NCBI GenBank assembly: GCA_030374765.1
Contig: JARGXX010000138.1
Location: 1,240,001 to 1,304,000, forward strand
From: Agarophyton chilense
Lineage: Eukaryota; Rhodophyta; Florideophyceae; Gracilariales; Gracilariaceae
Direction of reading: 5' to 3'
Length of the DNA stretch: 64,000 nt
The notes under the pieces are model-generated. The model saw only the letters and a program-made list of their open reading frames with translations. It was not told the DNA's origin and searched no databases. How positions within the stretch are numbered: the first letter of the stretch is position 1; each line of letters begins with the position of its first letter. Of the stretch, positions 5,489 through 59,995 are shown one piece after another. Both the position numbers and the translations under genes were made by a program.

Positions 5489-5574
5489 ATTTGATAAATT
5501 ATGAAAGAATGAAGTAAAGATTATATTGTTTACATGTTGTGGACGATCGTTCGTGATCTTTGTTACAGTGCTAT

Positions 5575-5726
5575 TAAATTAATCTTAATTCCCGATATTT
5601 CCCTAAAGTATTCTGCTCATACTATGTCGTTGCAGAGCTCAGTAACAAGAATAGCTTGTGAGGAAGTTGTATATCGACATCGATGCTTTTCGATTGTTCG
5701 ATTCAATGTGCATCTAAAATGCTAAA
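5575..5726 (-). repeat. 3' LTR remnant of gypsy element A
   Basis: The segment aligns with 15960-16119, sharing ATTCTGCTCAT, ATGCTTTTCGAT and TTCGATT in the same order. It is preceded on the minus strand by the polypurine tract. Only about 150 bp of an LTR of about 1.06 kb remain. Confidence 0.6.
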
Positions 5727-5883
5727 TATCCCCCTCATTAAGCCCGGAGCACCCGTAAAGCAAGATCTTAAAAGTGTATCGACAACGTGCTTCACTCCAA
5801 GTTCTCGGTCTCAACAAACACCCAACATTGCATCTCAACACGGCCGCTTCTGTAGTCGTCTTTTATAACCTGCGACACTCGCG

Positions 5884-7563
5884 ATGAGCAATCCTTGCTA
5901 TGTGATGAGTCCATCGACTTCATAAGACGACCTGAACAACCCAGCACATAATCAAACCACTGCTTCTTTGGGTGGTCCCGGTCCCATATCTCGAACAGCG
6001 CCGCTTCCGGCTTCTTCCTCGGTCCTAGCCCAGCATATCTTTCTTCAACAGAAGCCATTCTAGAACCATCATCGTCTGCGATCCAGAACTTTCCGCACCA
6101 AGCGGACTTCATCGGGCAGAAATAGATGCAGCACACTGCACTCTTCGTTCGTGGTCCCTGGTTTTACCTGCGGCTGTCCGCAACGAAGATCTCATCCGTG
6201 AATACGTAATTGGTGGTCGACTTCCTGACTGTATTCCGTGGTATGTTAACGAGCAACTGGCTCGGCCATTGCACGATTCCAAACAACTTGGTAGGCCACT
6301 TTGGCTCCGAAATCATGGAGGAAGGCTGCGAAAAGTTCATCCGAGTAGTGTACTAGTGAATAAGCCGCGTGAATGGGACCGTTCCTTAAGCGAATATTGG
6401 ACTCTCGATACCACGATCTCCGGAACGAACTAACAGGCCCACTCGTATGTCCAGAATCTCGCGGATTTGGATGTCGAACTGTGGCGCGTCGTACGCGGAG
6501 TGTCCAACATGGCTCTTTGCTTCGACAGTCCTCAGATTCGAGCACAGTTACGCTATCATTGCAAGCGCAAAAATCGTTTTTGGGAATTCCCTCGATGAGA
6601 GAGACGTACTTGATCAGGACCAGGATACTTGGTCTTGTACCAAATGCTGGGGATCAACCGAATTCGGCAGAACTCGAGCACCGGGCGCTATGTACCCATC
6701 CCTCGTTTTTGGCATGAAATCGAGAGTCCTCGCGGATTTTCTGTGAAGCTCCCTTCAGTGATTACCTATGTGGGTTCCCACGTTGAACATGATTCACAAC
6801 CCGGTTTCTGAGTAGTCATCTACAGTGAATTCATAGCTAACATGGCCGTCTTCATTCTTTAGAATTTGCATGACATCTATCGCCTTTGTTACATGAGCTC
6901 AAGGGCCCAACAACTTTCGAAACAGCTCAATAGGTCCATAGTATTGAGATCATGTGCAAATCACGAAGAGTTTCAGCACCTGATGAGTATCATGGACCAG
7001 ATTGATTGGACACTGGTTCCGAAAGAAGAGAATGAAATAGGTATAACTCGTCGTTATCATGCCCCTGGAAGGACTGCGCCTAGCGGTGATTTCGTTTGGT
7101 ATGATCCACGGACCAAACAACACATCCACGGCGATCACGCCAAGACCGTACGGTAAAACCCGAGAGCAATGCCTCCTACGCAGCCAACATGCTATCAATT
7201 AGAGATTATGCCTCTTAATGTCAACGCAATCGAAGAAGAGCTCTAAAAAATCGACTACGGTGACGAGCCTGAAGAGCCGGGCCTCGAAATAACCGTTCCA
7301 ACGGAAAAAGACGGCATTGAGCCCATAGCTCCGATTGAAACGCAGAGGGATGGCTAGGAGCCAACAGACACAGCTGAGATGCAGAGTTCTGCTTACGAAC
7401 CCGAACAGCCGGTGGTGTCGATGCACAATGCGGAACTCGACAGTTTGGGGCGGTTCTTCAAAGAAGCTGGGATTCCTCACGATGCAGTTCAAAGCGACCG
7501 ACAGCCGGTGCTCAGTCTCCGGCACTCCTCGGTGGGCAACCACCCTGGCGCTCCTAGCCCGTG
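5884..7563 (+). pseudogene. Antisense ORF of gypsy element A (novel family, decayed)
   Basis: On the strand opposite gag-pol, a protein homologous to the antisense ORFs of elements B and C can be followed through several frames. The start is likely the ATG at 5884, 158 bp from the LTR edge. Blocks matching element C are: MSNP at the start, followed by a Ser/Pro/Gly-rich stretch containing SLGG; ALFVRGPWF then AVRNEDLI near 6140-6205; DLDVELWRVVRG near 6465; LRYHCK near 6550; LPSVITYVGS near 6755-6785; FIL then DIYRLCY near 6855-6890; GDFVWYDPR near 7085; and AELDSLGRFFKEAGI at 7432-7475 near the C terminus. Several stops interrupt it, one of them where element C has tryptophan. Function unknown. 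It ends about 240 bp from the convergent end of pol. Confidence 0.6.
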
Positions 7564-7804: not shown

Positions 7805-10209
7805 GACCATAGCTTGTTTATAGTACGACACCACGTGAGACCGTGATAAGTGATGTATTAATTCCACTGTATCGTCTCCGGGTTGATACCCATACCGTCG
7901 TACTCTAAACACCAAACTTTTATCCCTAGCATGCCATCCATGACTTATAATTGGTTCGATATCGTACTTCTCTACTCCATTGAGCGGCGTTGAGGCCGAG
8001 ATAGCGCTTCTGTTATCGGGCTCTGCTGTGCATACTTCGTGTACCGCTCGCTGAGCCTGCTAAATGTTCGACCGCTCTCTCGAAGCGTCTGTTGTCGCCT
8101 TACTGCGTTCATCCGGTTTGCCCACTTCTGGGTGTCTCAAAGCCAGTTTTATGGATTCTCGTGATCTTTCGGATTCGGCCTGGATTTCTTCTGATCATTC
8201 GGTTAACCAGATTCTTTCAGCGATGAAGCGGTGTTTTTTCTCTCCGTACGCCTTTGTTCTGCTTTTGAGGGCATTTTAGATTCTACGCTTATAGTAGAGG
8301 GGGGCATGGGGCGTATTTTTTTATGCGCAGAGTCTCCCTTCGAGGAGTTAGTCGATACAACCTTGTGATTAAACTGTGGCCCTTCCAATTCGATTCTGTT
8401 TCTCTAGAGATGGAGATCTCTCTTCTCCTTGTGAATTTCCTTGTATTCTCTTGTGAAATTTGCGTCTTTCCACCCGAGTAGCGGAACATTCTTGCTGACT
8501 TCAGTTTCGTATTTGTAGTGTGCTATTGTAGGTGGCTGAACAGCAACGACCTCAGGTTCTCCTGTTGATGGTTCCACGACGCGAGGCGCGCAACCATCTT
8601 CAAATGAAGCTTTTTTTCTCACTCTTCTCTCCGACCTCATCACTACTCTTTACGTGAATGTTTCCTGGTGTGGGAGATGCAGATCGCTACGAGCTCAAGG
8701 CGCGTGTCGCCAAACCTTCTCCGACTTGACCTCCAAAGTTCAAAATTTCACCCATCAATGCCCCTCGTGGCTGCAGCCCGCTTACTAACGTCATGCACAG
8801 GTTCTTCGGATCGTGCCAGCCACATGGCAATATTTTTAAGTTATTTTCTTTCTTGAGCGGCCAGTTCGCAGGTGCCTGTACTCTAGGGATCTGCAGTGGT
8901 CCTTGTACCTCAGTTGATACACGAGTCAGATATTTTTGCTGCACATCAGCTTCATGGATCGACACGACCCCAGCTAAATCTGAACTTGGGTCATTTACCA
9001 CTCTATCGCATGAAATGTGGTCACCCTTCTTTTTTTCTCGGATAACAATCGTGTGCTCGTCGATTTAGAGAATTCCGTGCGGTCCAGTCGCCACCGGCTC
9101 TAACTTATGATGGCGTTTCCGTTCCTTTTATTCTACCGGTTTCCGGTTATCCTTTTTTTCTATTCTCACGAAGACCTCTCCTCAAACTTGGACATCCGGG
9201 ACTTCCCGCCGTACTGACGCGTCGAAATTGTGCTTGTGGTTTTCTTGGGCAGTTTCCATCTTGGTGACGGCTTGCGTAGTGCGATTGTGCACCTCGTCTC
9301 TCCAACGTAGGTGAAACAGAGCCAGCATCGGCATGTCCTTATATTCGGTTCTGTCCGAGCGAATCTCGATGAGCAAAGCCTTCGGGCGGCGTGGCAGAAC
9401 CAGCTCGAATGGAGCTAACTTCATAGTCAAAAGAACCTGTGTCTTATAAGCGTGGAAAAGCGTGTCCGTGTAAACATCCCAGTCCTTTGGGTGTTCAGTG
9501 ATGTGATGCTGGGGAGCCGCGAGTACCGTACGTTTGTACTGTTTCACCTTCTCGTTACATTGTGGTTGATAAGTCGTGGCGAGCACGTTCCTAACTCCCA
9601 GTTTCTTGCATACATCTTTAAATAAGCGTGCAAAAAAATTGCTTACCAATTTCTGAGAGCGGAGTATCCGGCGGTCTATAGTGATAGATCGAATGGTGTA
9701 TAAAGGCTAGGGCTATAATGGCAGCTGTGATCCGTTTAAGAGAAGTTGCCTCGAACAGCTTAGGAAAGCAATCAGTAATTAACAGATGGTATCCGTTTCC
9801 CCGCATCGAACGAATCAATTCTCCGAGTATATAGATACTTACATAATGAAAAGGCGCTTCCGCCCGGAGTAACTTCATTTGGGTTCTTCATTTTCAACAC
9901 CGTAACTAGATTTATACTGCATGTTGTGCACCACTTTTATGTCGAATGACAATCTAATACCAAAGTAGGCCGATGAAACTCCCTTTTGAGAGTTGAATAC
10001 AACTTCGTTCCTCCTGGATGACCAAACAATTGTGAGTAGTGAGCCAAATGTAGTACTCTACTCTTCATAACGTGTTGTATCACGATTTTATCATGTGCTT
10101 CGACAGCTCGAAGAAGAAATCCTCGATCATCGAGACGAAAAAGTAGCTCCTCCTTCCCCTTTAAGACGAAAGGGGATAGACGCAGAAAAATTGTCCGTGA
10201 CCTGTTCAC
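7805..10209 (-). pseudogene. Element A integrase, linker and chromodomain (decayed)
   Basis: 10209-9937 holds the zinc-binding H2C2 region (HYSQLFGHPGGTKLY) of a gypsy integrase, and 9878-9182 holds its core, including TTYQPQCNEKVKQY around the catalytic glutamate and the downstream TPFELVL-like APFELVLP. A GPY/F-type module (TGPHGIL) follows near 9115-9090. Then comes about 1 kb of broken low-complexity coding sequence. Finally a chromodomain (about 7975-7805) shows YDIEPIISHG, FRVRRYGYQPGDDT and SHVVSYY. Chromodomains let chromovirus integrases target methylated histone tails. Here both expected tryptophans (the one before GY and the one after the acidic DDT) are Arg and Val. Multiple stops mean no intact product. 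Confidence 0.75.
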
Positions 10210-10234
10210 GCAGAAGCTCCTCGAGCCTTATTCG

Positions 10235-12761
10235 TTAAAGTTGATCATCGGAATCTGTGCTCGTAGTCCGGGTTACCAGTAAATCAAAAGCATAATATTT
10301 TTCGTCATGATTGTTCTCCTCATCAGCATCTTTCGAAATCGAATTTTCCATGAACAAATATTGAATCTCATCATTGATTTTGAATAGGGTTTCTCCCAAG
10401 GTTTCGAGTCGATATAACGCTTTGGTATGACCGTTTGAAATCCCCTTCTTGTAGTTGAAAGGAGAATCAAATTCAGAAAGGCTTAGGCGCCATCGCATTA
10501 ACCGCCTCGAAGGGTCGTTAATCGACATGACTCATCTTAAAAATGAGTGACCGCCAATGACCGCAAATCGTACTCCTTGGAGATAGGGCCGTAAGTTGGC
10601 TAGAGGCCGTACCGTAGCAAGGTATACCTTTTCTGATACTGAAAAACTCGTCACTGACTGATGCAGTGACTATGCAATGGGGTATCGTTTGCCATTTTTT
10701 TGCGTTTTAAAAAGTGCACACCCTACCTGATATTCACTTTAATCGGTGTCCACGGAATAGAAAAGATCCGTTCCCGGAAGTCGTAGAACAGGAGCGGATG
10801 TCAGCATTCGCTTCAACTTATCGAGGGCTCCTGACTCGAATGGATAAAACTCATACAATAGTATAGTTGTTTATTCTTCAATAATGCGTTCAGAGGCGCT
10901 GCTACATTCAAAAACACGGTACAAATCGTTAGTAGGCCTTACAAAGCTACAGAAAGGCTCGCAATTTGGTCTGCATTGCGTTCTAGGAGGTTTCTTTTCA
11001 CGAAATACAACGGTTCGCACCTTTTCCATTTCCAGCGTTCTTTGTCTGATGTTATGTCCCAGGTATATCACTTGGTACTTAAACCATTTACATTTCTTGA
11101 TCACCAAGGTAGTCCCAGCTTATCTTAGCTTCTCCAGAATCCCCTCCATATCTATGAGATGATCTTCAATACTGTTACTGAATACAATGATAAAATCTAA
11201 ATTGACAAAGCATGTCTTCCACTTTTTTGGCGACAAGATAGTATCGAAAGCGCGCTGGAACGTTGTCGGAGCGTTGGTTGAACCGCTTAAAGCGATACAG
11301 TCCTTATTGGCAGACGAATGACGAATGTCGTCTGATCTTGATTCTCTTGGTCCATGAGTACTTGCCGGTATCCCCAATCTGCGTCCATTGTAGTAAACAA
11401 ATTGGCTCTGCAAAGACTGTCGGTGCATTAATCCATGCGTGGCAAAGATTGCGTATCCCTTATAGTTACTGCGTTCAGTTTGAGTTAATCAACGCAAAAT
11501 CGTAAAGAGCCATCTCCCTAGAGAGAAAATACCACTGGAGACGCCTAAGCTGATTTAACTGGCTCAATAATTCTCTTGTCTAGCATGGGTTGAACGTGTT
11601 CCTGCTCGATTTGATGTGCGCCAGAACCTTCCCGATAAGGCGCTTGGTCAATGGGTCTGCAACCCTGTATTGCATCAATGTGATGTTCTGAAGTGGGAAT
11701 CTATACAATTTATCTATTCCACATACGGAAATATTTCAGTAGTACCTAACGCAGCCTTTCCTTGTATTACCCAGAAACGTGTTCCATCTCCACGCCCTCG
11801 ACAGCCTTTTCTTTCTCTTCTTTAGACTTATTTCCCATTATCGTGTTTTCCATGTTCTGTTCTTGTCCTGTCGGTGTCAACGGCGGCTCGCCCTTAGGCG
11901 TGATACGAGGACGTCAGTCGTCATAAGGTGGGTCGGTATCACAACCGAAGGGTGCGGCACAGCGGTCTCCAGAACCTGATTCTTGTGCGCGCGTCGATCT
12001 TCTGAGCCAACATTGCCCATAAAAAACTTTAAGGGTCTTTCCCGTTACACCCGGGCGATTCAGTTAGCGAAAAGTAATTCACAATTGTGATACAACACAG
12101 CCATTTGCTGAATAATAATAAGCCCATGTTTCTCAATAACAACTGATTCTCAAGCCTTGAATTTCGGCGGTAATATCGTCCACGGACAAAACCGAATATT
12201 TGATGAGCTCATGCTCCACTGGGCGTCATATTCTAGTGAAGGTTGTAACTGTACTGCGTAAGCGGGGTTCCGAAGCGGTTTGCGCACAATAGGTACGGTT
12301 GTTCCGTTATCCCTTTCCATTTCTCGATTCTTCGGATGTATTTATTCCGCAGATGTGCCGCAGAAGTCAAATTCCAGAACAACTGGTGCTGCTAACGTGT
12401 CACACGCGATAAACGATAACATGACGTCATGATTTCCTAACCGAACGACAAGTAGTACAGTTTCAAGAGATTTTCTTGGTTTTTTGTTTCCATTCCGGCT
12501 ATCCAGTAGCTATGTCTTTTAGATTTGAACCTGCTCGTCGGTTCGAAAATCAGACCGTCTAATAAAGTTCGGACCGGCACTGGTATCAAAGACCGCGAAT
12601 CTGCATGACAAGACTGATTGAAACAGGCCGACATGGGCGTAGACCTTTTCATTTCTACGGAGCATGACCATGACGTACTCAGTTCTTATTTTTGGACGCA
12701 CATATCGTCTCCAAGGGCATTCTAAAGTACAGTCGAGCTGTACTCGTTTGGTGATATCCAA
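10235..12761 (-). pseudogene. Element A protease, reverse transcriptase and RNase H (decayed)
   Basis: 12761-12519 carries the aspartic protease with FDTSAGPNFI, equivalent to DTGAGPNF in element C. The reverse transcriptase palm is at 11428-11120: STNAPTTFQRAFDTIL, then NLDFIIVFSN where active enzymes have YLDDIIVFS, so a catalytic aspartate is lost. The connection and RNase H follow at 11107-10235, ending in LMRWRLSLSEFDSPF and YKKGISNGHTKAL, equivalent to the RNase H end of element C. The fragments lie in different frames separated by stops. The order is that of Ty3/gypsy pol. Confidence 0.75.
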
Positions 12762-21299: not shown

Positions 21300-21304
21300 T
21301 CGAG

Positions 21305-21627: not shown

Positions 21628-21630
21628 GTT

Positions 21631-26201: not shown

Positions 26202-26223
26202 CAGGAACTCTGAGAGGAATTGG

Positions 26224-34868: not shown

Positions 34869-37800
34869 GATTTAGTTCAGGCAAGGAAGACCCCCAAGAT
34901 TACCAATGCGTCACGTAGACCAATGGATATTAAAGAGATATTACCACTTTATATCCAGTCAGGACAATTCAAAGTCCGCACGTGGTTCCTTGTATGTCCT
35001 AACTTGGGCGCTGAGGCAATCCTAGGACCTCCTCTATCGATACATCAAGGCCATTTATCCAGGCCTTAGAAAAGTCGCATGCTATCGTGCACCTTCCATC
35101 TCCATAACTGGTTCCGCCCCAGCGCCAGATGCTAACCACAAACAAGCGGTTATCTCCGTAAACACGAAGTCTAATAAGGTTCGCTTGTCAAAGGCCACAA
35201 CGATACCCCGATGACCAAAATCACAGTATTGGTCCATTCCCAGTCTTTATATCTCGTAACGATTCAGAACCACCGGAAAACGTTTCTGCAGCACCTTACC
35301 TTTATGGCCAACGAAGTTATGGACATCCACCCTAACGGGCCCTTCTTGGTCACGATGAGCAATTTCAAATATAATCCCGTACGGTTACCTAAAGATACAG
35401 TAATTGGCATCACTCTATTTGCGCCGGTGGCCATGATGAAGGCCCAAATGGATAATCTTTCAAGGCGAACTCCCGACGAGGACGTCGACTCTTGGAAGGG
35501 GATAGTCGCTACCGGGGCAGAATTAGAATGCTATATGCCCCAGGTAGTTGATCTCCTCAGGGAATACTAGGCCATGTGGTCAGGTAAATTTGGAAAAATC
35601 AGAGCCACTACTGACCGCATTGACCTTCAGGACGATGCTGGACGACAGTTCCAGCACCCATACCGTAAAGGCCTGAAGGGAACGGAAAATTTCGCCGACC
35701 AGATGGACAAAATGCACAAAGCTCACGTCATAGAGCCGGCGCCTCCTAACCAATCCGAATGGGCACGTACCATTGTCCTCGCCGCTAAGAAGGATCGCTC
35801 CGTCAGGTTCTGTATCGACTAAAGGAAGCTGAACGCAGTAAACAAGAGGGACTCATACCAAACACCCCGTATGGATGACTTTACAGATTCCTTAGGTGAA
35901 GCTGCCGTATTTACCACACTGGAAATTTACTCCGGATGTTGGAAAATCCTTTTGGCCGAAGAGGCGAGAACCCTGATAACCTTCACATCCCATGAAGGTC
36001 TGTTCAGAATTATTCGTATGCTTTTTGGTTTAAAGAATGCACCAGCAACCTTCAAATGAGTAATGGACATGAAACTATCCAGATTCAAATGGATATTCGC
36101 CCTGGTCTATTTAGATGACGTAATATTCCCCTCAAGGACCGTAAATGAACACCTTCGCCACGTGAAAACGGTGCTAACAATCCTACAGGACGCTGGAGTA
36201 ACACTGCCACTCAGCAAATGCGCCTTCTTTCAGGCCTCGGTGAATAATCTCGGTCACATCATTCTCCCAGGAAAGCGAAAGGTAGCAACACGGACCGCGA
36301 GTGTGATCCGCCAGGCTAAACCTCCCAGCACCCATACGGAACTACGAACCTTCGTTGGCTTGTAAAATCTTTACCGACGTTTCGTCCAAGGGTTTGCTAA
36401 AATCTCGGCCCTCTTCAACTCAATGCTGAAGAAGGGAACACCTTCGGAGTTTGAGACCCTTACCGACGACCAGTACGAGGCATTTCACACCCAAAAGGAT
36501 AATTTGCTGAACCCACTTATACTGGCTTAACCAAAACCCAATAGGTCATTTGTTCTGGACACAGATGCCTCTGATGTCCAAGTGGGATGTGCACTGCTAC
36601 AGGAACAGGAGTCGCCGAAGGACTATCGACCTACTGGATACTAGACCCGAACGCTCACCAGCGCGGAGTGACACTACAGTACTACGGAAAAGGGATGTCT
36701 AGCCATCGTATGGTCCGTATTGACACTGCGTCCATACCTCGAGGGAACATGTTTAACATTAGGACAGACCACGATTCACTCCGCTGGTTACTCAATATGA
36801 CCGATGCATCAAGTCGCCTCGCTCGGTTGCACCTCAGGCTGTCAGAACGTGACTACGAGATAACCTGTAGGCCAGGCTTCAAACACCAGGCAGCAGATGT
36901 CCCCTCGCGAATCATTAGCGACGGAACTGATGACACTGCATTGGACGACCTAATTCCTACCCCCTTTACAGGTGATGGACCTCAAGACTATACGGAAACT
37001 GATGACCTTATGGGGAAGGTGTAATCGGAGGATCCTGATGAAAAGGAGAACGAAGTATATCTATTGGACTGGGAGAAAGTACCGCCCTATTCGGCACCAC
37101 CTCAGGTTAATGCAATAGCCCCGGAGGAAAAAGAGCTCCTCCCTCTAACTATTGAGGAACTCAAAGAGGCGCAGGAAAAAGACGATTATTGCAAGGAAAC
37201 AGCCCAATTGGTAGGAACCCCTGAATGCCTATTCGACTACGATCGAATCGAACTACTGTGTGGCCGCTCACCGCTGGATGGCGCACTCCGACGGGTAGTA
37301 CCAACTTTGCTGAGGGTGCGATTCCTATACCTCGCCCATTTCCCTCGCTTGGCTGGTCTCCCTGGAGGGCAACTAATTTACCAGACCGTAAGGAAGTATT
37401 TCTACTGGTTAATGATGGCACAGGATCTATGGCAAACCGCACGTATCTGTACATCGTGCGCACAAATCCGAGGGTCTCACGCCAACCATCAGGCCAAATT
37501 GAGGCTCTTTCCCGCCGCAGGTCCGATGGAATTTGTCGCTATGGATATACTCTGGCCTTTGCCCAAGTCGTCCCATGTGTAACGGCTTGTTTTGGTTATA
37601 ACCGACAGGTTTACCAAACTCACCCGAGTCCTACCACTAGGGAAGACGACAGCCACGAATTTCGCCACGGCCTTCCTGTTCCACTGCGTATGTCCATAGG
37701 GCACGCCACTGTACCTCCTTACAAATAACGGCATCCAGTTTGTGTCCAGATTCTTCTCGCATGTCTGTGCTACCTTAAGTATCAAACATGTAACCACCAC

Positions 37801-38925
37801 GGCTTAACACCCGCAAACCAATGACCAAGCCGAACGCTTCCACCGCATCCTTCTGGACCGTTTGGCTGACTACGTATCGGAACACCAATTGGACTGGGAC
37901 GACTACGTTGAGCCATTGGCTTATGCCTAAAACAAGCAGATGCACGCTTCCACGGGGACTAGACCTTTCGACTTAGCGCTAACGAGAGCGCCGCCTCCGA
38001 TAGCTGTTGAACTTCAGAAGTCTATCATACCCCGGGACAGAACCGAAGGGATGACTCCTACCCAGGCGCGGCGCTACTCGCGCCGACACATCGACGACAT
38101 TATCCATTCGACTAGAACTATACTGACCAAAACCCAAAGGCGTTACAAGATCAATTTCGACAAGGCCGTTTGGAATAAACCGACCTTTGGGAAAGGAGAA
38201 CTTGTTTACATGGACTGACCACCGAACGACAGTGAGGAACTCGAGGACACTACGCCGAAGCTCGTACTCCACTCTATGGGACCATACAAAGTCCTTAAGG
38301 CCAACCAAGACACCATTACGTCACTAAGTGACGGCCTACAGGACACCGTACCTATTGATCGTGTGACACGAGCCCCCAGCTCCCCCGAATCACCAAATAC
38401 TGAGTCCCCTGGCCCAACGGAATCACTACGATCTCAGGTCGACGTTCAAGTCCCCACACACCCTAAGGCAGTTTTTGTGGACCCGACTAGCCCCATGGAC
38501 CATGGTCGATGGCAATGACGATGACCCATCGCTTCCAACAGGCTCTGATGGTTTCGCCCCTTTGGACCACATTCTCCTGCCGGAGAATGATTACCAATCG
38601 GAATATATGATTGAGCGCATAATCCATGCCGGTCGGGGATAAGATGGAACTATGTTATATCGCGTCCGTTAGTTCGGCTACACACCTGAGGAAGACACTT
38701 AGAAAGAGCCTCAAACCATTACGGCTAATTCTTTCAGCCGCTATTGGCGCAAAATCGGCAGCACGGAGCACAGCCTTCAGGAGGGGGCAACCATTGGCCC
38801 GAATAATTCAAAAAAGACTCTCGAAACGCCTTCCCACACGACGGTTCGCCGGAACACGACGGTTCGCACGAACACCGCATCAGGGAACAAAGCCAGTCCT
38901 CAGGAAACACTTGAAAAAGACCTGA
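34869..38925 (+). pseudogene. Element B pol: RT, RNase H, integrase, chromodomain (decayed)
   Basis: RT fragments 35574-36365 contain SVRFCID, MLFGLKNAPATFK and VYLDDVIFPSRTVNEHL, so the YLDD box survives. RNase H (about 36540-36920) contains LDTDASDVQVGCALLQ and RTDHDSLRWLLN. The integrase zinc region (37064-37582) has LAHFPRLAGLPGG, where a His is lost, and CTSC. The integrase core has AMDILWPL and then TNNGIQF, with Asn replacing the second catalytic Asp. A GPY/F motif MGPYKVLK is at 38276. The chromodomain (about 38600-38700) reads EYMIERIIHAG and FGYTPEEDT, with TAG codons at both expected tryptophans. Many stops; clearly inactive. Confidence 0.75.
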
Positions 38926-39076: not shown

Positions 39077-41176
39077 TCACTGAGGTGGCAAAGGAGTAAC
39101 TCTGTCGTCCTCATTGGAACCTGCAGGAGCGAAACCGGGAGTGGGGTACCCAGAGGAGCCAAATGGACCACAAAGACCGGCCCCAGCGAGCCGAGCATGC
39201 TTCTTCGGCGGAGATTCTCCTGAGGAACTATTGTCACCATCGAAAGCCTCCCGGTCGCTCAACTTTAGACCATACCGGGCATCCAAGTCGGCAGTAACCC
39301 TCTGGGACATCATTTGGGCATTCTGTGGCAGGATATTGACCATGGGGGTCTTCAGATTCTGACCCTGTTGGACAACCGCATCGTAGCGCGCCGAGCGACG
39401 CGCCACAGAGCAAGCTTCCCTCAGGACTATTGCAATGTCAATCGAGTCCGGAAAGTGTGGCCACGGAGAGGACGGAGCGATGTCGACTCCCCCAGTGGAC
39501 GGTTGACCCAGCGCATCACCTACAGGGCTTTCGGCCTCGACAGTAACCTCGCCGGGAGGCATTTCCACTTGGGCGAGGGGCGGCTCACATGAGAGTTCAT
39601 CCTGAGGAGCAGCGCCCGGAGAAGCTGGAGCAGGGGAAGCGGTCGGAAACACAACAGTGAACTCGACTGGAGGATTAACGCCCTCTACGGGTAGGACGAA
39701 GGGATCTTCACCGAAGAATTCTCCTTCGGACATACCAGCAGAAAACATCGGCGTGGCTTCCACATCAGGCTCGAAGCACAGGGAATCGAAACCACTGGCC
39801 TTCGGATGATAGTCGGGCACATGACGCCTCGGGATGTCCGATTGTTGATTCCTCAAAGGCTTGGAGAAACAGGCACGAGCGTCGTCCCGACCCTACGAAT
39901 GTAACGGAATCGGCGTAAACGAGTCTTTATCGTGGTCATACCAAAGGAACCCGGGAGTCTGGCCCCACCACACCTGTATGACATGATCCAAAAGAGCCTT
40001 GGTCTCCTCGACGTCGAACTGGGTTCCACGGACAATATTCTGGAGGCCCAGGTTCCTTAGGAGACGGATCATGATGTCCAGGAGCGGGAATAGGCGACTT
40101 CGAGGACCGGGTATGTTCTCGTCATACCATACCCTCCAGTCCTCCGAACGGACATTACCACGGACTCCGTACTTCGCGGTATCCAAGAAGGCCATAAGGG
40201 ACATCACGCCGAACTCAACGAAGAGTACCTTCCAGGACAGCCAAGCCCTTCGGTCATTGTCATCTCCCATGAGTTGGCACGAGTACTACGCCACTACAGA
40301 CTGCGTGGGAACCAAAACGAGCGGCGAGACACGCCAATACATTGCCAATTGGTTCTCATTCTCTTGGGAAAGCGAAAAATGTAACGGAAGACGTTTGTCT
40401 GCGCTAATGTCGTGAAACTCCACTCGGTGCCAACAAAAGAAGAACCTCAGGGATTGACGCCAACGACCATCGGGCACAAGCATATCGTTCCAATAGACCC
40501 TATTGGAGATCCATAACAGGCGGTCATACGGCGTTTGAAAGCACATGAGCGCCAAGAGGGTGTGAACCGTCGGAGGAAATCGCACATGAGGCGAGATGAA
40601 GTCCGTGTATAAGTCCGAAAGTAGTTTGTTCACCCTGAACTGGTATTCGGCTTCCTCCTCGCAGCGAATATACGCCATGTCCGCTTGGACGAGTGTGCGA
40701 CATCGCGTCGCCGAACGCGAATCCACAGGACAATCCAACCATCGGTTATACCACGAAACGCTGCGCGCGTTCTTGCTGCCCCTCCGGAAATCGGGTATCT
40801 TGGAAATCATTCGGGCGTCGAGATATATATGGCAGAACCTTTTGTATTCGTCCACAGAAGATGGAAGAATGGCATGAAGCACTTCCCGTGACTTTCGTCC
40901 GATTGTATGGTCACAGCGGTCTTCGAGACGTTCGTAGGCCACTTGGTATCCCGAACAGCTCCCCGCTTGGTTGTTTGAAGCCATAGTGCTGCTGCCCACA
41001 AGTTGGTCCGCCGGAAAATGGATAGGAAAGCCGACGGAAGCGACAAAGTCCAGAGGAAGAATGGCGTATCCGACGGGCTTATAAGGCGACTTCTGCATCG
41101 CGCGTAGCCACTGGAAAAGTACTACGATGAGAAGACGAGCGGAATTGACCTGAGGGGACTAAGAGGCGTAATCCAT
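39077..41176 (-). pseudogene. Antisense ORF of gypsy element B (novel family)
   Basis: One reading frame on the strand opposite pol runs about 700 codons, from ATG at 41176 (or 40984) to the stop at 39077. It is interrupted by only three stops: a TAG near the start, and stops ending the 40286 and 39893 segments. The middle aligns with the element C antisense protein: EAEYQFRVNKLL, then VRFPPTVHTLLALMCFQ, YDRLLWI, LRFFFCWHRVEFH and FVEFGVMSLMAF. Then come LLDHVIQVWWGQTPGFLWYD (39960-39901 region), facing LLDFVEGVQW and GDFIYFD of C. The C-terminal 260 codons are rich in Pro, Glu, Gly and Ser and are less similar. No known domain is recognised. Such an open frame in otherwise heavily mutated DNA suggests selection until recently. 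It begins 356 bp from the 3' LTR and ends about 150 bp from the convergent pol. Confidence 0.65.
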
Positions 41177-41531
41177 GGTGGAAGAATCGCGGAGAGTCGC
41201 CAAATGAAGAGCGGAGACTAAGGACGTCCTCAATGACCTTTAGGGAAGAATAAGCCAAGGGACCATCGCGCTACCGCGCCACGAGGAATACGCCGGCGAT
41301 GTATCTATGGCCAGTGTCCACGGCGCGCGGGAGTTTAAGTCCTTAGGCAAACTAATTTCCACCCTGGCGCCAATGGTCAGCTCACGTTTCCTCTTACCCC
41401 CGCAGGTGATGACAACGCGACGCCCCGTTGCGCCCAATGGTCATGGGAGCGACTTCACGCTCACGTCCCCTGGTTCCATCATGAGGCAATCTGGACTTTG
41501 CCGAGACGGTCGATTCATAAGGAGGGAGGTA

Positions 41532-42227: not shown

Positions 42228-43092
42228 TGAAGAGCAACGTCCTCCAGGGAGGTTTTTGGGGACTTAAGTTTTTTCCGGAGCCTCCGGCGTGCAACCTCGT
42301 TATGAGTAGGAGTAATCCGCTTTCACGGCGACACCCGGAACGCCGGTGATGCACCGGCGGGACCGGGTGCCATACACGTGGCCGCAGCGCCCGCGCGACA
42401 CGTGGCCGCCAGATTGGCCCCTTTTGTTAGACTGACATTTAGCTATTTAGGATGGACTTTATTTATTGTATTCTACGGTGACTACAGTACTTAGGCCGCC
42501 GGCCTCGCGGCCGCCGGTCCAGTAAAGTCTCCCCAACAAGGGTGATCTTGGTCTTCCAGATCTTGGCTCTGGGTCGAACCGCCTGCGCGGATATACAACT
42601 CCTTACGGAGGGTTTTCCTGTGGTGCACGGCTTCCCAACCCCCTTGGACGTTCAAGCAGCCTTCGTTTGTCGGGTATCTATTCCCACTTTCGTGGTTCCG
42701 CCCGTGTATACGGTTTGCTACAACCGGCAGTTCCGGGTATTCCCGAGTCGGCTCTTGCGACTCGTGGTCAACCTCGCCCTCTTGCCTCCGTTCCCATTTT
42801 CCTTCCCTTTTCCTCCCCTTCATTGGGCAATTCCCGCTCTTGCGGCTCGCACTGACACCTGTCGTACTCGCCACTCTCGTGGGTTTTGCCTCCTCAGAGG
42901 ATACGCAAGCACCGCTTCGGCGGATATTCTCGGCTTCTTTCAGCCTCCCTGCGCCCGTCGCGACGGTTCGGCTCCGGCTTACACCCGGCATTGCGCACCG
43001 ATCCCTGGGAGGGCTCTACCGCGCCGGTTACCTCGTGAGAGGAAGATCCGGACGTCTTCGTAGGTTTTCCCCCTTGGGGGCATTGTCCTACA
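42228..43092 (+). repeat. 5' LTR of gypsy element C
   Basis: 865 bp, TGAAGAGC to TCCTACA. Compared with the 3' LTR it has one extra base and about 29 substitutions. Open frames on both strands inside it are chance products of GC-rich DNA. Confidence 0.95.
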
Positions 43093-45348: not shown

Positions 45349-48238
45349 GGCGTTCTCAGAGTTGAGGCTGACGACGCCCGAGGCGCCAATGCCTCGCTAC
45401 CAAGTGAAAATCCTGACAAGGAAGGACACCGCAGACGCGGACTCTAAACACCTCTGTGTTTTGCGTCGACCGTGGATACGGATTAGAAATAACCGGATCC
45501 CGGATAGAGTCTTGGTAATGGCCAAGAGTAACTACAAGGTTTACGCTGACCTTGGTCTGCACACGCAGTTTATGGTGAGATATCTCACTGTCCTGGATAC
45601 AGGTGCTGGGCCGAACTTTATTGTGGAATCGGTTTTACCCCCGCCATTGCGGTCACTCATCCGTTCTGAAAGGGTACCCGACGTCTCAGACGCCAATAAC
45701 AACCCGTTGAAAACGGTTGGTGTGATCGACCTGGTCGTCAGGCTAGGGCGGATGGTGGTTAAACTAACTTTTATTGTGTGCCGCTCGCTGGCCGCGCCAG
45801 TTATACTGGGATGTGACTACTGCGACAGGTTTGTCGACGCCATCCGCCCACGCCTTAAGCAGGTGGAACTTGAGGACGGATCGACCGTCCCCATTGTTCG
45901 TCAACCGCTGAAGCGGGCATCGGGGAAACACGTTCGTCTACCTGCTGCGCAGGAACCCACACCGGCAAACCGGGATTCTACGAAGCTACGCGTTGCCTCG
46001 TCAGTCACCATACCCCCGGAGAGCCAGGTTATGGTTTCAGTCAATTCCCGTCAACACGGTCTTCGGGTTGTTCAGCCCTTGCCCTCGTTGTACGAGAAAT
46101 ATCAGTTAACCGTTGCGAACGGAATCGTGCAAGTCACGCCGAATTCCCCTTTGAGGGTGTTGGTTGCCAATATGGGAAAGGCTCCCCAGACGCTGGCAAA
46201 GAACCAAGTCATTGGGTCTGTGACGCCGCACCCGCTCGCGATGTTCCCTACAAAGGTGACGGCTGCCGAAGTACTCTGAATAACTCCCTCTACCGAGGAT
46301 GGTCTCCCGGTATCCGGTGCAGAAACCTCGGGGGAGGCACAGCAGTTGGCGCTCGATAAAACCGTTAAGACGGATGCATTTCCGACCTCGTCGGTTCCCA
46401 CACCTGACACCAGGGCACAGCCTACGAGCTACGATAAGATAGACCCGATCAAGGCCCTCGAGGACCTGGACCTGAGTCATGTACCGGTCTCACACCGGGA
46501 CCGCTTACGCGGAATGCTACGCGAGTTTACCACAATGTGGGACGGCTCACTGGGTGAGATCAATACAACCGAACATCGGATAAATTTGCTACCGGACGCA
46601 CGTCCGGTTGCACAACCCCCTTACAGGGCGGGACCGAAAGCTGGGGAGGAGGAAGAATTTCAGGTGGACAAGATGCTCCGTGCTGGAGTCATCGAGCCCA
46701 CCCAATCCCCTTGGGCTTCACCGGTGGTGCTGGCCCTCAAGGCTGACGGAACGTGGCGGTTTTGCGTTGACTACCGCCGCCTCAATGCCGTCACCGTGAG
46801 GGACACCTACCCGATTCCGCGCATGGACGAGTGTATAGACTCGCTCGGGGACGCTACCGTGTTTACGGCTCTGGATGCTAACTGGGGCTACTGGCAAGTC
46901 CCAGTCCGGGAAGAGGACCGAGACAAAACCGAGTTTGTTTGCCACTCGGGTTCCTACCGCTTCAAGCGGATGCCGTTTGGTTTAACCAATGCACCGGCCA
47001 CCTTTCAAAGGGCAATAGACATACTGATGTCGCGTTTCAAGTCGCGCACGTGCCTTGTCTACTTGGACGACATCATTGTCTTTTCCAGAAACCTGGACGA
47101 TCACCTGACCCACGTGCGGGATGTGATGACCGTACTGCGAGACGCAGGAATAACCCTCAAGTTGAGGAAGTGCGAGTTCTTCACCGACACGGTGAAGTAT
47201 CTTGGGCACGTCATCCGTCCAGGACGGTTAATGATCGAACAAGTTCGTATCAAGTCCCTCTGCGAGGCGAAGGAGCCCCGTACTCAAACGGAGCTCCGAT
47301 CCTTTTTAGGTCTGGTCAACGTCTATCGACGGTTTATACCGAGTTTCTCGGATATCGCCGCTCCGCTAAACGCGCTACTGCGGAAGGGCCAGCCACCGAA
47401 GCTTGCGCCATTTACCACCGATCAGTCGGACTCTTTTCGCTCCTTGATTAAGGCAGTTACGACAGCTCCCATCCTATCCTTGCCCAAACCTGGGCTTCCC
47501 TACTCCATCGACACCGACGCTAGCGACCACCAGGTGGGCTGCGCACTGTTCCAAACCACCCCCGAGGGGGAACGCAAACCAATTGGCTATTGGTCCCGCA
47601 CGCTGAACGTCCACGAGCGCAACTACTCGGTCTCCGAGAAGGAGTGCCTTGCAGTGGTCTGGGCGCTATCCACTCTGCGCCCATACCTCATGGGCGTTCA
47701 TTTCACCGTGTACACGGACCATGTCTCGTTGAGGTGGCTGCTGAACATCGCAGATCCTTCTGGCCTCTTAATGCGGTGGCGCCTCCGCTTAGCGGAATTC
47801 GACTTCGAGGTCGTCTACAAAAAGGGTGTCCAGAACACCCAAGCAGACGCCCTTTCTCGATTACCTACGATAGGTGAAGCACTTTCCGACCCGGAGGTCG
47901 ACGAGATCCCGTGCTTTACCTTGGAAGGGGAAACACCGACGGAGTCAGATAGGCCCGAAACCGGGGAAGACACCATGGAAATGGATGAGCTACTCGCAGC
48001 GCGCGAGAATGAAACACCCGTACCCGGGACCTTTGTACCCATCTCCACCGAGGAGATGATCCGAGAACAGTTCGGCGACCCGTTCTGCACGTGCATACGG
48101 GCCCGCCTAAACGGTGGAGAGGACCTCCCGTTCGAGGTAAACGACATCGTTACCTCGTCCGGACGGTGGACCACCGATCCCAGATCGTGGTCCCCCACAC
48201 CCTGCAAACCAGGGTGCTCCACCTCTCACACTACCTGA
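45321..48238 (+). pseudogene. Element C pol: protease, reverse transcriptase, RNase H
   Basis: After the frameshift, protease shows LDTGAGPNFI (about 45595-45625). A single TGA (46277-46279) interrupts the frame before RT. RT has ADGTWRFCVDYRRLNAV, ALDANWGYWQVP, MPFGLTNAPATFQRA and the intact catalytic VYLDDIIVFS (about 47060). RNase H has SIDTDASDHQVGCALF, EKECLAVVWAL, YTDHVSLRWLL and NTQADALSRL, all key acids present. RT copies element RNA to DNA and RNase H removes the template. The frame drifts near 48165, where a one-base change moves the reading into the integrase frame. Apart from the TGA and this shift the enzyme looks functional. Confidence 0.85.
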
Positions 48239-50604
48239 CCCTCGGGGGACACTCCGGTGGGAGAAAACTTTATCTAACCCTGCGAAGGGACTTTTATTGG
48301 CCCGCTATGGCGGTTGATTGCTACGCTACGGTGCAGTTCTGCACCCAATGCGCAAAGAACCGGGTGAAACTCCGGAAGCACTCCAAACGGATGAAGCTTT
48401 TCCCCGCAAGGGCGCCCCTCGAGTTTGTCGCAATCGACATTCTCGGGCCTCTACTGAAGACGCGCAAGGGAAACAAGTTCCTCTTGGTTATCACTGACCG
48501 CTTTTCGAAGCTGGTGCGCACCGTACCTTTACGGAAGATCACCGCTTTCACGGTTGCGAACGCCTTCGTTACGCACTGGGCGTTCGTTTATGGCCCTCCG
48601 ATAATGGTTCTATCCGATAACGGTAAGAAGTTCGCCTCTAAGTTCTTTCAGGACGTCTGCCGCATCCTCGACGTTAAGAACCTGTTTACTACCACCTACC
48701 ATCCGCAAACAAACGGGCAGGTGGAACGCTTCAACCGCACCCTACTCGCGTCGCTACGCTCCTACGTATCCGATCACCCAATGACGTGGGACATTTATTC
48801 TGATGCTATCACCTACGCCTATAACACGCAGGTTCACCGGACAACCGGTCTGACTCCCTTCGAGCTTGTGCTCTCCAGGACACCCCCGCCAGTGGCGGTC
48901 GAACCCCAACACAGGGTCAATTCTTTCCCATCCGTGGGTCAATACCTCCTCAAGTGGAAGAACTGGCTTACCAAGCTCGTACCGGTCGCCCGGAAGTCCA
49001 TGGAACGTGCCCAGGCCGCCTACAAGCGGGATTTTGATAACCGCTTACGCGGACCACAAACGGCACCGCCCAAGCCGGGAACCTACGTGTTCGTTCGCCG
49101 GGAGTACTACAACCCCCGGACCGACAAGCGTCACAAGCTCTCGCCTGTCGCTGAAGGTCCGTTCCGGGTCGTGCCCTCCCTCCCTGGCCCCGTTGTGGTG
49201 GACAAGAACGGCGACCACGAATGTCTTTCAGAAGACCGCATCGTAGCCGCCCCACCGCCGCAGGCGGAAAACACATCAGCCCCCGTCGAAACGGCCTCGG
49301 ATATCACGGGTACAACGGTGGCACCACGCCCCGCCGTGGTACCGCACCCCTCACGGGGTCTCTCCGATATACCGACTTTATCGGAACCCCCGGCAATGCC
49401 GGAAACACCTGACCCTCGCGGCCGGCTACCCTTACGGGCGCCGCGCAGCGGTATTTATACCTGCCATGCGGTAAGCCCACCATCACCCGTCGCTCCGTCT
49501 AAGGAGGGGGAGGGGACCCGCTCAATCGCGGAAGCATCGCCGTCGCAACGGAAGTTTAACCGGACACCCCGGGCAAGGCCCCCGAGCGGGCAACCAGCAT
49601 CGTCGCCGGACGCCAAGCCGCTCCCGCGGGGCGCGGCGGTCAACCCGACCGCCACGCAACCCCGCAAGGGGGACCGAGGCGCTCGAAGACCCGAAGCCGA
49701 AAAGCGAGACCCTACGGACGCTCCGCATCGCGTGGAAGCAACTGAGGGCTCCCCGCACAACCGCGGTCGCACACCGAGCGTTTCGGTCGATACCGGTACT
49801 CCGGCGGGCGCTGCGCAAGCAGGTCTAGCGAGCCACTCCGTTGAGAACGGTACGAACTCCATGGGGGAAAAGGGGCGCGACGACAAGTCGAAAACCGCTT
49901 CCCTTGCCGAACAATCGGAGCCAACCGTCCGCGACGGTCCGACCACCCGTCCTCAAGGTCATGTGACCCGGGCGGGAGATCGGACCAATGGGCACCTGGC
50001 ATCCCGGTCACTGGCTGACAGCCACCCCGCGGAGACGGATCGCCGGGACGGTGAAGCACTCACCGCCCACGGCGCACCGCACGGCGGAAATGGCCCACCA
50101 ATGGGAACGCCGCATGCCGCAAATCAAGCGGAGGCCTCCAGCGAACCGTCACCAAGACGGAAGGACCCCCGCAAACTCGCGGTAAGAGCGGACTTCAGGG
50201 AAGCCCCTACCGCCCAGCGGAAACACAACCCGGCCGCGCCGGCAACTTCCGCGAAGCGGTACGGCAGCCCTGGCAACCCGGCAACAACCGCAGAGCAGAA
50301 TGACAAACCGGGTGACCCGGAACAGGCGACGACGAGCCCAGCACCACGCGGCGCTTAGGCTCGGGTCACCACCACCCGGCAAGGCCGGCAAGTTTACGTG
50401 CAGGAGTACGTCCTCGACCAAATCATCGGACATAGCTACGATGAGCACGGGATGCTTCAGTACCGGACCCGCTGTTACGGATACGGGCCGGAGTGGGACA
50501 CCCCGGAGCCCATCGAACACCTCCCGCGCTCCGCGGTAATGCGATACCACCGCCTTGCGGGGACCGCACTCCCAGCCACGCTGGTAAACGCCCAAGAGGG
50601 ATAA
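48166..50604 (+). pseudogene. Element C integrase, long linker and chromodomain
   Basis: H2C2 zinc domain at 48218-48360 (HYLTLGGHSGGRKLY, then CTQC). Integrase core with the catalytic acids in VAIDILGPL, VLSDNGKKF and HPQTNGQVERFNR (48430-48740). GPY/F module EGPFRVVP near 49160. A linker of about 370 codons, rich in Pro, Ala, Thr, Gly and Arg, follows to 50355. TAG at 50356-50358 interrupts the frame. The same frame then gives a chromodomain (50398-50560): EYVLDQIIGHSYDEHG, YRTRCYGYGPEWDTPEPIEH. Its first aromatic-cage tryptophan is Cys and the WEP tryptophan is Pro. Integrase inserts the cDNA and the chromodomain normally guides it to chromatin. Ends at 50604, 333 bp from the convergent antisense ORF. 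Confidence 0.85.
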
Positions 50605-50937: not shown

Positions 50938-52711
50938 TCATTCCTCCACACGAGGTGGACCCCCGCCCAGGCGGTTGGCTAAGGCATCCCGCATGGCGGC
51001 CACATCACCCGAGATCTCGGAAGGGCGAAGCCCCACCTCCCGAAGGAAGCGCGCGATGACCTCGCCCCACTCCGCGCCAGCGGCAGTTGCGGGCGGGCCC
51101 GCCACCGATGGAGTCGGATAGGAATCCGTTCGCACGGCATCAGCAGCCCCAGATGGAGCCGCAGCACCGTATTCAACGCACTCCTCACCGGCCTCGCCGG
51201 ACTCGTCATCCTCCGTCGGAGCGTAACCCGGATCCTCCGGTTCGTTGTCGACCATCGGGTCACCATCCGCATAGCCGCGGTAATAGTCGCTCGGGTCGAC
51301 ATACCCTCGCGGGTGGTCGGCCGGGACTTCACGCGGCGCATGCCGGTTGGCTTCCGCTTCCTGGCGGCTGATCTCATGGTACTCCCAGGGGTCGAAGTAG
51401 ATGAAATCCCCCGCTAGCGCGGTATTCCTCCCGAATCCGGGGCCAGACCCGCGACGCGGTTGAATGCGTTAGGAGTTCTCCAGCGGGACCTCATCCCACT
51501 GGACCCCCTCCACAAAGTCGAGGAGGCCCAGCATCTCTTCTTCGTTCGCCTCGCCCCCGAGGGGGATGCGCATGTCCAAACGGCGGATCGCAGCCCGCAC
51601 ACGCGGTGGCACGTACCACAATCGGTATTGGTCGTACGCCTCAGCGAGGATAAAAGCCGCAGTGCGGACGGCACATTCGCTTACCACGACGGACCACCAC
51701 CCCGACTGGGAATCGTTCAAGAACGACGACCCTACATAGGTGAAGATTGGGGGCAGCTCAATGAAGCAACCCCAGCACGCCTCCAAGGAGGACCACCAGT
51801 CTGGGAGACTGACGTACCGACCACGTCGGTGAGCAGGCGCGATGCGCTAAATCTCCGTGTTCTGGTACGGTACGAAATACCCGGTCCGGGCCCGCCAACG
51901 CCGCTCATCGCGGATGAAGTTCTGACGGAAGTTCGAGCGCGACTGCCGCGGTTGGTAGCGGAACTCTGCCCGAAGAATCGGTCGTACCCAGCAAAGGGCT
52001 TCTTGCCGAGCGATCGGTGTGCCCCTCCAAGCGAGGGTTTCCAATCCGTTAAGACGGTCGCAGTACGACATTTCCTCGCGTGCGGTAAAGGTGGACGTCG
52101 AATTCGACCTCTGGCGGTATCGGGAACTCGAAAGGCGCCCGATGGTGCCTGAGATAAGCGATCCGCACAAGCGCGGCCTGAGCCTCGGCAGAGGATTCAC
52201 CGCGTCGGCGGAGTATGTGGTGTACCGGGATGGCGATACGATTACGCCAATCCCAGGACATGGTCACCACGCCGTGCAGGTCGCCCGGGAGCATCTCCGA
52301 ATTATCGGTGTAGGAGTGGATCAAATCCTCGTCGCGGACAGCCAATGGGTGAAACCAAGGCGCGTACCGCAACATCGCGGAGCCATGCAGAGTTCTCGGA
52401 TTTGCACCCACAAGGGCGTCGTAGGTCGGCCACTGCGGTGGGTCCGCCTGTCCGCGAAAGCGGGCGCCAATACGGCGGTCTTCGTACGCGAGGTTGGTAA
52501 CATCCCCAGGGTGGGGCGCGGACCGGAAGCCGGTGGAACCGCCAAGGGCGGGAGTCGCGGATGTGTTATGACGGTCGGGGTTGGACATGGTGCTTGTTGG
52601 TGTGCTGTGGTTGGAATCGGATGCGAAAAGCTTGCGTGGGATCCCTGGTGAAGGTGTGTTGGTTTCCGGAGACCCGGTGTCGGACGCGCTCTTATCAAGA
52701 CGAGCTGCCAT
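50938..52711 (-). pseudogene. Antisense ORF of gypsy element C (novel family)
   Basis: Reads on the opposite strand from ATG at 52711, only 48 bp inside the 3' LTR, to the stop at 50938: about 590 codons. The first part (52711 to about 52085) is one frame with a disordered Ser/Thr/Pro start, then AMLRYAPWFHPLAVRDEDLI and FEFPIPPEVEFDVHLYR. A one-base shift near 52085 leads into a second frame. This has only two stops (ending at 51847 and 51469) and contains YCDRLNGLETLAW, ILRAEFRY, LPPIFTYVGSSFLNDSQSGW, AEAYDQYRLWYVPPRVRAA, LLDFVEGVQWDEVP and GDFIYFDPWEYHEI. An acidic region and the C-terminal AEWGEVIARFLREVGL follow. Blocks match elements A and B. No domain recognised, no signal peptide or membrane helix seen. 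Confidence 0.7.
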
Positions 52712-52745
52712 ACCGACTTCCTCTTCGAGGTGTTCGCCCTGTCTT

Positions 52746-52758
52746 AAGGGGGGGGATA
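52746..52758 (+). promoter_or_regulatory. Polypurine tract of element C
   Basis: AAGGGGGGGGATA directly precedes the 3' LTR (TGAAGAGC at 52759). It primes plus-strand synthesis. Elements A and B have the same G-run plus ATA or GTA at the equivalent place. Confidence 0.85.
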
Positions 52759-53622
52759 TGAAGAGCAACGTCCTCCAGGGAGGTTTTTGGGGACTTAAGT
52801 TTTTTCCGGAGCCTCCGGCGTGCAACCTCGTTATGAGTAGGAGTAATCCGTTTTCACGGCGATGGCCGGAACGCCGGTGATGCACCGGCGGGACCGGGTG
52901 CCATACACGTGGCCGCAGCGCCCGCGCGACACGTGGCCGCCAGATTGGCCCGTTTGTTAGACGGACATTTAGCTATTTAGGATAGACTTTATTTATTCTA
53001 TTCTACGGTGACTACAGTACTTAGGCCGCCGGCCTCGTGGCCGCCGGTCCAGTAAAGTCTCCCCAAGAAGGGTGATCTTGGTCTTCCAGATCTTGGCTCT
53101 GGGTCGAACCGCCTGCGCGGATATACAACTCCTTACGGATGGATTTCCCGTGGTGCACGGCTTCCCAACCCCCTTGGACGTTCAAGCAGCCTTCGTGTGT
53201 TGGGTATCTATTCCCACTTTCGTGGTTCCGCCCGTGTATACGGTTTGCTACACCCGGCAGTGCCGGCTATTCCCGAGTCCCTTCCTGCGACTCGTGGTCA
53301 ACCTCGCCCTCTTGCCTCTGTTCCCATTTTCCTTCCCTTTTCCTCCCCTTCATTGGGCAATTCCCGCTCTTGCGGCTCGCACTGACACCTGTCGTACTCG
53401 CCACTCTCGTGGGTTTTGCCTCCTCAGAGGATACGCAAGCACCGCTTCGGCGGATATTCTCGGCTTCTTTCACCCTCCCTACGCCCGTCGCGACGGTTCG
53501 GCTCCGGCTTACACCCGGCATTGCGCGCCGATCCCTGGGAGGGCTCCACCGCGCCGGTTACCTCGTGAGAAGAAGATCCGGACGTCTTCGTAGGTTTTCC
53601 CCCTTGGGGGCATTGTCCTACA
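52759..53622 (+). repeat. 3' LTR of gypsy element C
   Basis: 864 bp, about 97 percent identical to 42228-43092, ending TCCTACA just before the flank CCATG. Confidence 0.95.
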
Positions 53623-59867: not shown

Positions 59868-59995
59868 ACTCAGGTTGGAGCGAAGGCGAACTTGTTCGCT
59901 GCGTTGAAGACGTTCGGCAGCTGGTTGATGAGGGCCAAAGATCACCACGGCGTTTGAACGCCATTCGTAGAAAATTCTTGCACAAAACAGTCTGA
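58991..59995 (+). CDS. A/B-type mitotic cyclin, copy 2 (complete)
   Basis: 334 codons without introns, ATG at 58991, TGA at 59993-59995. The N terminus has KRALGDITN (residues 8-16), the pattern of a destruction box, with Lys where Arg is usual. Cyclin_N spans about 86-215, with the diagnostic MRAILVDWIADV (118-129) and IAAKYEEIYAP (171-181). The second cyclin fold runs from about 217 to 325 (STPYCLTFLNRIG at 215-227, HISAAAVLLAMQKL). Cyclins of this class bind and direct a cyclin-dependent kinase to drive S-phase or mitosis and are removed at anaphase. The features do not separate type A from type B cleanly. Met5 and Met6 are alternative starts. Length is short for the family, the N-terminal tail being only about 85 residues. 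Confidence 0.95.
   Translation: MISSMMPKRALGDITNRHANVRNSFPLKRAAKAQKISNNISITKNHHHVLSEKAPVSQNTFPSKTNTKYIDIDASDKLNRVEGSDLAAVIHKNHLLAEKRHMPSTNLLESHKTVTRGMRAILVDWIADVCVCLKLKDSSLHLCVHILDRFLHSYEPTRKTLQLVGSVCLYIAAKYEEIYAPDANDFVTLSDGAFSMDDVVLMEATILNALRFEVSTPYCLTFLNRIGKTLEAKGMHNEVAQNVLESAQMFVELAMVDGRHLKYRPSHISAAAVLLAMQKLGVNVSWCESLSFHSGWSEGELVRCVEDVRQLVDEGQRSPRRLNAIRRKFLHKTV

Follow-up and report, generated by a model that had tools for sequence, protein, structure and literature searches.

The window, that is, the whole stretch of 64,000 nucleotides of the red alga Agarophyton chilense considered here, holds three LTR retrotransposons of the Ty3/gypsy type (A, B and C), each with a long antisense gene on the strand opposite to pol. 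Element C is bounded by a 5′ LTR (42228..43092, plus strand) and a 3′ LTR (52759..53622, plus strand), 96.6% identical by blastn over 865 columns; a polypurine tract adjoining the 3′ LTR is read in the sequence at 52746..52758 (plus strand) and, taken together with the first bases of the LTR, occurs a single time in the window with up to three mismatches allowed. The same strand encodes the reverse transcriptase and RNase H (46280..48238; PF00078, E 1.3e-36; PF17917, E 9.5e-35), a long-tailed integrase with zinc-binding and rve domains (48013..50358; PF17921, E 2.4e-12; PF00665, E 6.3e-10) and a chromodomain-like pol end (50359..50601), whose match to PF00385 (E 0.044, 14.2 of 25.1 bits) is under the Pfam cut-off. 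The antisense gene (50938..52711, minus strand) lies between the end of pol, at about 50601, and the 3′ LTR, which begins at 52759; this is the position of the antisense ORFs named aORF-3R in other LTR elements (see below). Its start codon is an ATG at 52711-52709, separated from the polypurine tract by 35 bp, and its final stop a TGA at 50940-50938; the stop codons of pol and of the antisense gene, which converge, lie at a distance of about 335 bp in C as well as in A and in a further family, D. The window copy is decayed, with one frame change and two internal stops: in the ORF list it appears as 52049-52972 in one frame and as 51847-52263, 51469-51846 and 50938-51468, separated by stops, in another; its intact relatives are the loci L010, L015 and L031. 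In L010 and L015, both of the C copies examined for this feature, the sense frame stops at the identical place within the chromodomain, and family C may be devoid of a complete chromodomain.

The antisense gene of element B (39086..41317, minus strand) is also decayed, with a single frame interrupted by two stops (ORF pieces 41158-40286, 40285-39893 and 39892-39077); its coordinates are those of a tblastn match to the open frame of the intact copy L072 (68% over 769 columns) and possibly include codons preceding the start. The pol of this element was located by tblastn with the C pol at 35553..38425 (plus strand), with reverse transcriptase from 35553 and integrase at 37295-38425. Element A has the opposite orientation: its antisense gene (5881..7561, plus strand), decayed into three frames with stops (5881-6021, 6024-6386 and 6161-7561, the last with several), was matched by the protein of the intact copy L069 (tblastn) in pieces of 48.8%, 39.5% and 54.2% identity, while its pol (8987..11808, minus strand; tblastn with the C pol) comprises the integrase at 8987-10119 and the reverse transcriptase at 10157-11808. 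A fragment at 5564..5661 (minus strand), 73% identical to 15959-16056, is read as its 3′ LTR; element A is an old insertion. Antisense coding homology in the three elements had been proposed in the first-pass annotation of the window, and it is present, all five sets of motifs quoted there being found in the translations; on alignment with intact copies, four of these sets lie within matching blocks, the fifth (YDRLLWI of B paired with YCDRLNGL of C) joining motifs that occupy different columns. The frame of about 560-700 codons described there corresponds to the length of the homologous stretch; in all three window copies the frame is interrupted.

Other repeats are found in the window. A direct repeat of 226 bp (86% identity) occurs at 17468-17693 and at 41729-41954, the second copy adjoining the B antisense gene, and is perhaps a lone LTR of the family of element B. 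A Ty1/copia element (21304-26522), with LTRs of at least 300 bp that are 98% identical, shows in a pol piece (24178-25077), beside the reverse transcriptase, a match to a PTM/DIR17-like Tudor domain slightly under the cut-off (E 1.3e-5), and in an upstream ORF a match to DUF1759. Finally, an inverted duplication of 1.8 kb (1-1818 and 58049-59867; 99-100% identity, spacing of about 56 kb) takes in, in its right copy, the greater part of a cyclin gene (58961-59995; Cyclin_N, E 3.5e-37).

Intact copies and families in the genome

Searches over the 80 Mb of the genome (135 contigs) recovered intact antisense frames of 584-748 codons belonging to families A, B and C and to the further family D, intact copies being numerous in C and few in A and B, with at least 14 in D. 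The representative open frames reach 584 codons in A (L069), 611, 607 and 611 in D (L070, L071 and L073), 748 and 698 in B (L072 and L074) and up to 679 in C; having been chosen by length, they give no rate. Two pieces of the C gene were followed through their best 150 matches each, of 1477 and 1204 first-look candidates, a recurrence far beyond what chance would give; with the first piece, 91 of the best 150 have a frame that is open over at least 590 codons, and since 14 of these 91 hold a stop within the matched piece, 77 of the best 150 remain, counts that describe the best matches and not a genome-wide rate. Among distinct C loci, 18 of 26 have a frame of at least 520 codons. The B piece gave 135 scored matches, the window copy included, of which 14 have no stop in the match and 121 do, family B being mostly broken. 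It was the A piece that revealed family D: in 15 of its 150 scored matches listed (one A-like and 14 D-like) a frame of at least 577 codons goes with a match free of stops. To the left of the LTR side of one D copy lies a diverged gypsy integrase (L087), 27% identical to that of C. At the level of sequence, the antisense placement of the gene, the intact frames in other copies and, for C, D and A, the lack of any overlap with pol are established.

In all four families read (the window elements A, B and C, and the A, B and D loci fetched from elsewhere), pol lies on the strand opposite to the antisense gene. The antisense proteins are 49% identical between A and D, 33% between C and either A or D, and about 22% between B and C or D, B giving no significant identity to A; the integrases are 62% identical between D and A, 54% between C and D, 50% between C and A, and 35-46% and 33-40% between B and, respectively, C and D. 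The two proteins rank the families alike, as far as the B integrase, compared with C and D only, allows, and this order fits an antisense gene that was inherited along with pol as at least four families diverged. An apparent discordance between the pol and antisense trees proved to be an artefact of the decayed pol of window A (35-46% to the C integrase, 32% to that of D); pol taken from L091, an intact copy of A, agrees with the antisense family order. The B antisense protein is a remote relative, weakly joined to the other families by single-sequence BLASTP (E 2e-4 to 4e-4 with C, 0.002 with D, 0.11 with A), and a profile comparison of B with the rest also supports the relationship (92% probability, E 5e-7).

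The Chromo domain is over the Pfam cut-off in D (E 3.1e-11) and in A (E 2.4e-9), so that the elements are classified by their domains as Ty3/gypsy elements of the chromovirus type, in keeping with the chromovirus-like character proposed in the first-pass annotation; B is diverged, its peptide having no Chromo match at E <= 1, and the window A peptide has no Chromo match either.

Constraint on the antisense frame

The antisense frame was compared with the other five by a frame test, in which frame-blind DNA alignments were converted into ungapped in-phase blocks and evaluated in six frames against 200 shuffles; the blocks contain 1588 of 1685 aligned bases for A-D, 1455 of 1677 for C-A and 1328 of 1705 for C-D. 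The mismatch at codon positions 1, 2 and 3 of the antisense frame is 0.343, 0.314 and 0.616 between A and D, 0.497, 0.468 and 0.664 between C and A, and 0.438, 0.429 and 0.674 between C and D, with z values against the shuffles of 14.1 and 14.8 (two A-D comparisons), 10.9 (C-A) and 12.2 (C-D). Within the compared blocks the antisense frame has no stops, as against 4-42 in each of the five other frames. The runner-up between families, a frame of the gag-pol strand, attains z = 5.3-6.3, yet it contains 26-42 stops, and its signal is read as an echo of shared codon positions. Synonymous sites are saturated between families A, C and D (pS 0.75-0.78; pN 0.35-0.50). The same pattern, at lower contrast (z 4.7), was obtained with two B copies, a pair whose dN/dS is 0.44 (pN/pS 0.48, bootstrap 0.39-0.60). 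The conservation of the protein between families, which characterizes aORF-3R, is therefore also found here, and protein-level constraint and common ancestry across the families are demonstrated by these alignments. The first-pass proposal that the frame was selected is supported by the A-D contrast and by the stops in every frame of the gag-pol strand; an overlapping sense gene, which it had named as a possible cause of the open frame, is excluded by those stops and by the distance that separates the stop of pol from that of the antisense gene in C, D and A.

Among similar copies the selection signal is weak. The in-frame pN/pS of the C copies (17 of the 18 loci with at least 520 codons) is 0.596, as compared to 0.69-1.15 in the other frames; that of the D copies (12 of 15 loci, three with frames below 500 codons having been dropped) is 0.764, no lower than the 0.756 and 0.693 of two other frames, so that similar copies alone are no proof of selection. 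The pair L015-L031 gives a pN/pS of 0.74 (0.53-1.11), and there is no significant difference between shared and private changes (P 0.16 in C, 0.54 in D). This pattern fits mostly drift after insertion, and the case for selection consequently rests on the comparison between families. A dN/dS near 1, which had been indicated at the outset as evidence against selection, is thus contradicted by the B pair and by the C copies but not clearly by those of D.

Predicted properties of the antisense protein

The search for relatives returned 25 database proteins, of which the 12 with a given organism are from Agarophyton chilense (10) and Gracilariopsis chorda (2), both Gracilariaceae; the closest named ones are "unnamed protein products" from Agarophyton chilense that reach up to 90% identity with the query of family D. 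No significant match to the antisense protein was found in Pfam, NCBIfam or PHROG (five members for the latter), the predicted model has no significant match among the solved structures of the PDB, the best hit of the full model in a viral structure library (E 3.4) is not significant, and no viral relative is present among 13 pattern matches in IMG/VR; the first-pass remark that no known domain could be recognized therefore stands at accepted cut-offs. AlphaFold gives a pTM of 0.68 for the full length and 0.85 for the core, with a pLDDT of at least 90 at 248 of 547 and 234 of 398 residues, respectively, and in the model a core of roughly 370 residues, predicted with confidence and mostly helical, precedes an acidic linker, after which the chain ends in a short helical part. 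A net acidic stretch of 60 residues, with a charge of -5 to -18, is present in all 29 members examined, as counted without a control for composition. The fold is perhaps new, as far as the model indicates.

Several candidate identities were considered. The C-terminal helices match Ish1 at E 0.09-0.3, below the cut-off, and a SAP/LEM-like C-terminus was rejected; similarly, TRP28 (PF04195) matched none of 31 members at E <= 1. Weak Pfam matches in the 31 members include E3_binding in seven (best E 0.029), and neither a zinc knuckle nor a capsid domain gave a Pfam match over the cut-off. An envelope-like protein is disfavoured, also because of the antisense orientation with respect to gag-pol: the best 19-residue hydropathy ranges from 0.92 to 2.08 in 29 members and is below 1.6, the usual threshold for a membrane span, in 22 of them, and in most members the most hydropathic stretch is a predicted core helix carrying Glu and often Lys. 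Seven of the 29, including L069 of A, L072 of B and all three B-type database proteins, exceed 1.6, and by hydropathy these may have a membrane span. A basic cluster, searched for with a simple pattern, is found in eight of 26 members, the most similar to a nuclear signal being those of L072 (PPKKRAR), P0013 and P0022, and is missing in the other 18.

Proposed role, rival readings and known systems

The explanation we favour, to which we assign about an even chance, is that of a real accessory gene of a red-algal Ty3/gypsy lineage of the chromovirus type, transcribed from the 3′ LTR and encoding a nuclear, trans-acting protein. As the start codon is only 35 bp from the polypurine tract and leaves little room upstream, the antisense transcript most likely initiates within the 3′ LTR, where the promoter and the 5′ UTR would be located (52759..53622 in C). 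The protein would probably return to the nucleus, by analogy with GENE23 of Grande and with retroviral antisense proteins, a step made uncertain by the 18 of 26 members without a basic cluster; it might then act in trans on the DNA or RNA of the element itself, by regulating transcription or integration or by counteracting silencing, for which HBZ offers a comparison.

It is improbable, though worth serious consideration, that the protein is instead a structural or packaging helper, produced from the antisense RNA and working in the particle or in the nuclear import of the pre-integration complex. The large folded core of the model and the location of the gene beside pol in all four families would agree with such a task, and a role around the pre-integration complex is discussed for such genes in the text available of PMC7264820; against it are the lack of any Pfam match over the cut-off, be it to a zinc knuckle, a capsid or another domain, and an antisense expression that would be uncoupled from the dosage of gag-pol. 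Capture of a host gene by the ancestral element, kept for a host-directed task such as the suppression of host silencing, appears rather unlikely: a large protein with a single core, no viral relative among the 13 IMG/VR pattern matches and no PHROG match in five members speak for it, but no relative outside the elements was identified among the database proteins, the 12 named ones being all from Gracilariaceae, which is a weak argument to the contrary.

In another reading it is the antisense RNA, pairing with the gag-pol transcript into double-stranded RNA, that matters rather than the protein. Such a function of antisense transcription has been suggested in LTR elements (PMC7264820, in the part available); here it is disfavoured by the amino-acid constraint between families and by the position of the gene, which in C, D and A shares no coding sequence with pol, and we consider it quite improbable. 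Hardly credible, finally, is an artefact, i.e., a frame open by chance through GC-rich DNA or through an overlapping sense gene; the GC content of about 62% of family C at this locus, the frame of 411 codons opposite to the gene in many C copies and the weaker echo on the gag-pol strand could be quoted in its favour, but the echo frame is full of stops, the pattern across codon positions conforms to the antisense frame, and the A, B and D copies, with 51-56% GC, are still open, so that, unless the alignments are wrong, the frame test and dN/dS refute it.

With respect to known systems, the preferred reading of an accessory gene has both precedents and peculiarities. The red-algal elements resemble chromoviruses in the order of reverse transcriptase, RNase H and integrase and in the C-terminal chromodomain, to which they add the long antisense gene. 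Steinbauerova et al. are said to have reported in 2011 that the extra ORFs of plant chromoviruses are rare and placed at the 5′ end. HBZ of HTLV-1 is a bZIP protein; no bZIP match was found in the 31 red-algal members (Pfam, E <= 1), and host and element are unrelated. A likeness exists in the antisense gene with a promoter in the 3′ LTR, which is stated for HTLV in the accessible part of PMC7264820 and inferred for the red-algal gene. Antisense ORFs between pol and the 3′ LTR (aORF-3R) are established, according to the portions available of PMC7264820, PMC11963269 and PMC8365987, in plants and in Boty: they include gene23 of maize Grande, whose product GENE23 is described as having a nuclear localisation (PMC7264820), and those of rice RIRE2 and Silene Retand, all Tat-type elements (PMC7264820, PMC11963269), as well as brtn of Boty from Botrytis cinerea (PMC7264820, PMC8365987); the first-pass mention of plant Tat-type elements alone was consequently too narrow. 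The red-algal genes are similar to the plant ones in position, orientation and presence across families. Unlike the Retand genes, which contain TRP28, none of the 31 red-algal members does; moreover, Retand belongs, as far as its partial description goes, to a non-chromovirus lineage, whereas the red-algal elements carry a chromodomain and their host is a red alga. Boty, compared by its description alone and from part of the sources, is likewise an LTR element outside plants whose antisense gene lies between pol and the 3′ LTR, but a fungal one.

The novelty lies in the protein family, in the red-algal host and in the setting within chromoviruses; in the open-licence literature, as covered by titles and the openings of abstracts, none of the matches listed deals with an antisense gene of red-algal elements. 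Somewhat more doubtful than not is the further idea that this lineage has long carried and maintained an antisense protein of unseen fold acting as a trans-regulator in retroviral style, independent of HBZ and of the plant TRP28 genes. Antisense accessory genes recur in unrelated LTR lineages, namely plant Tat elements, fungal Boty and deltaretroviruses, a recurrence which suggests a common need after integration, and red algae add to these a new protein family in a lineage that is deep and apparently independent; the four families of one small genome, with their hundreds of copies, represent natural replicates, which make the role of such proteins testable.
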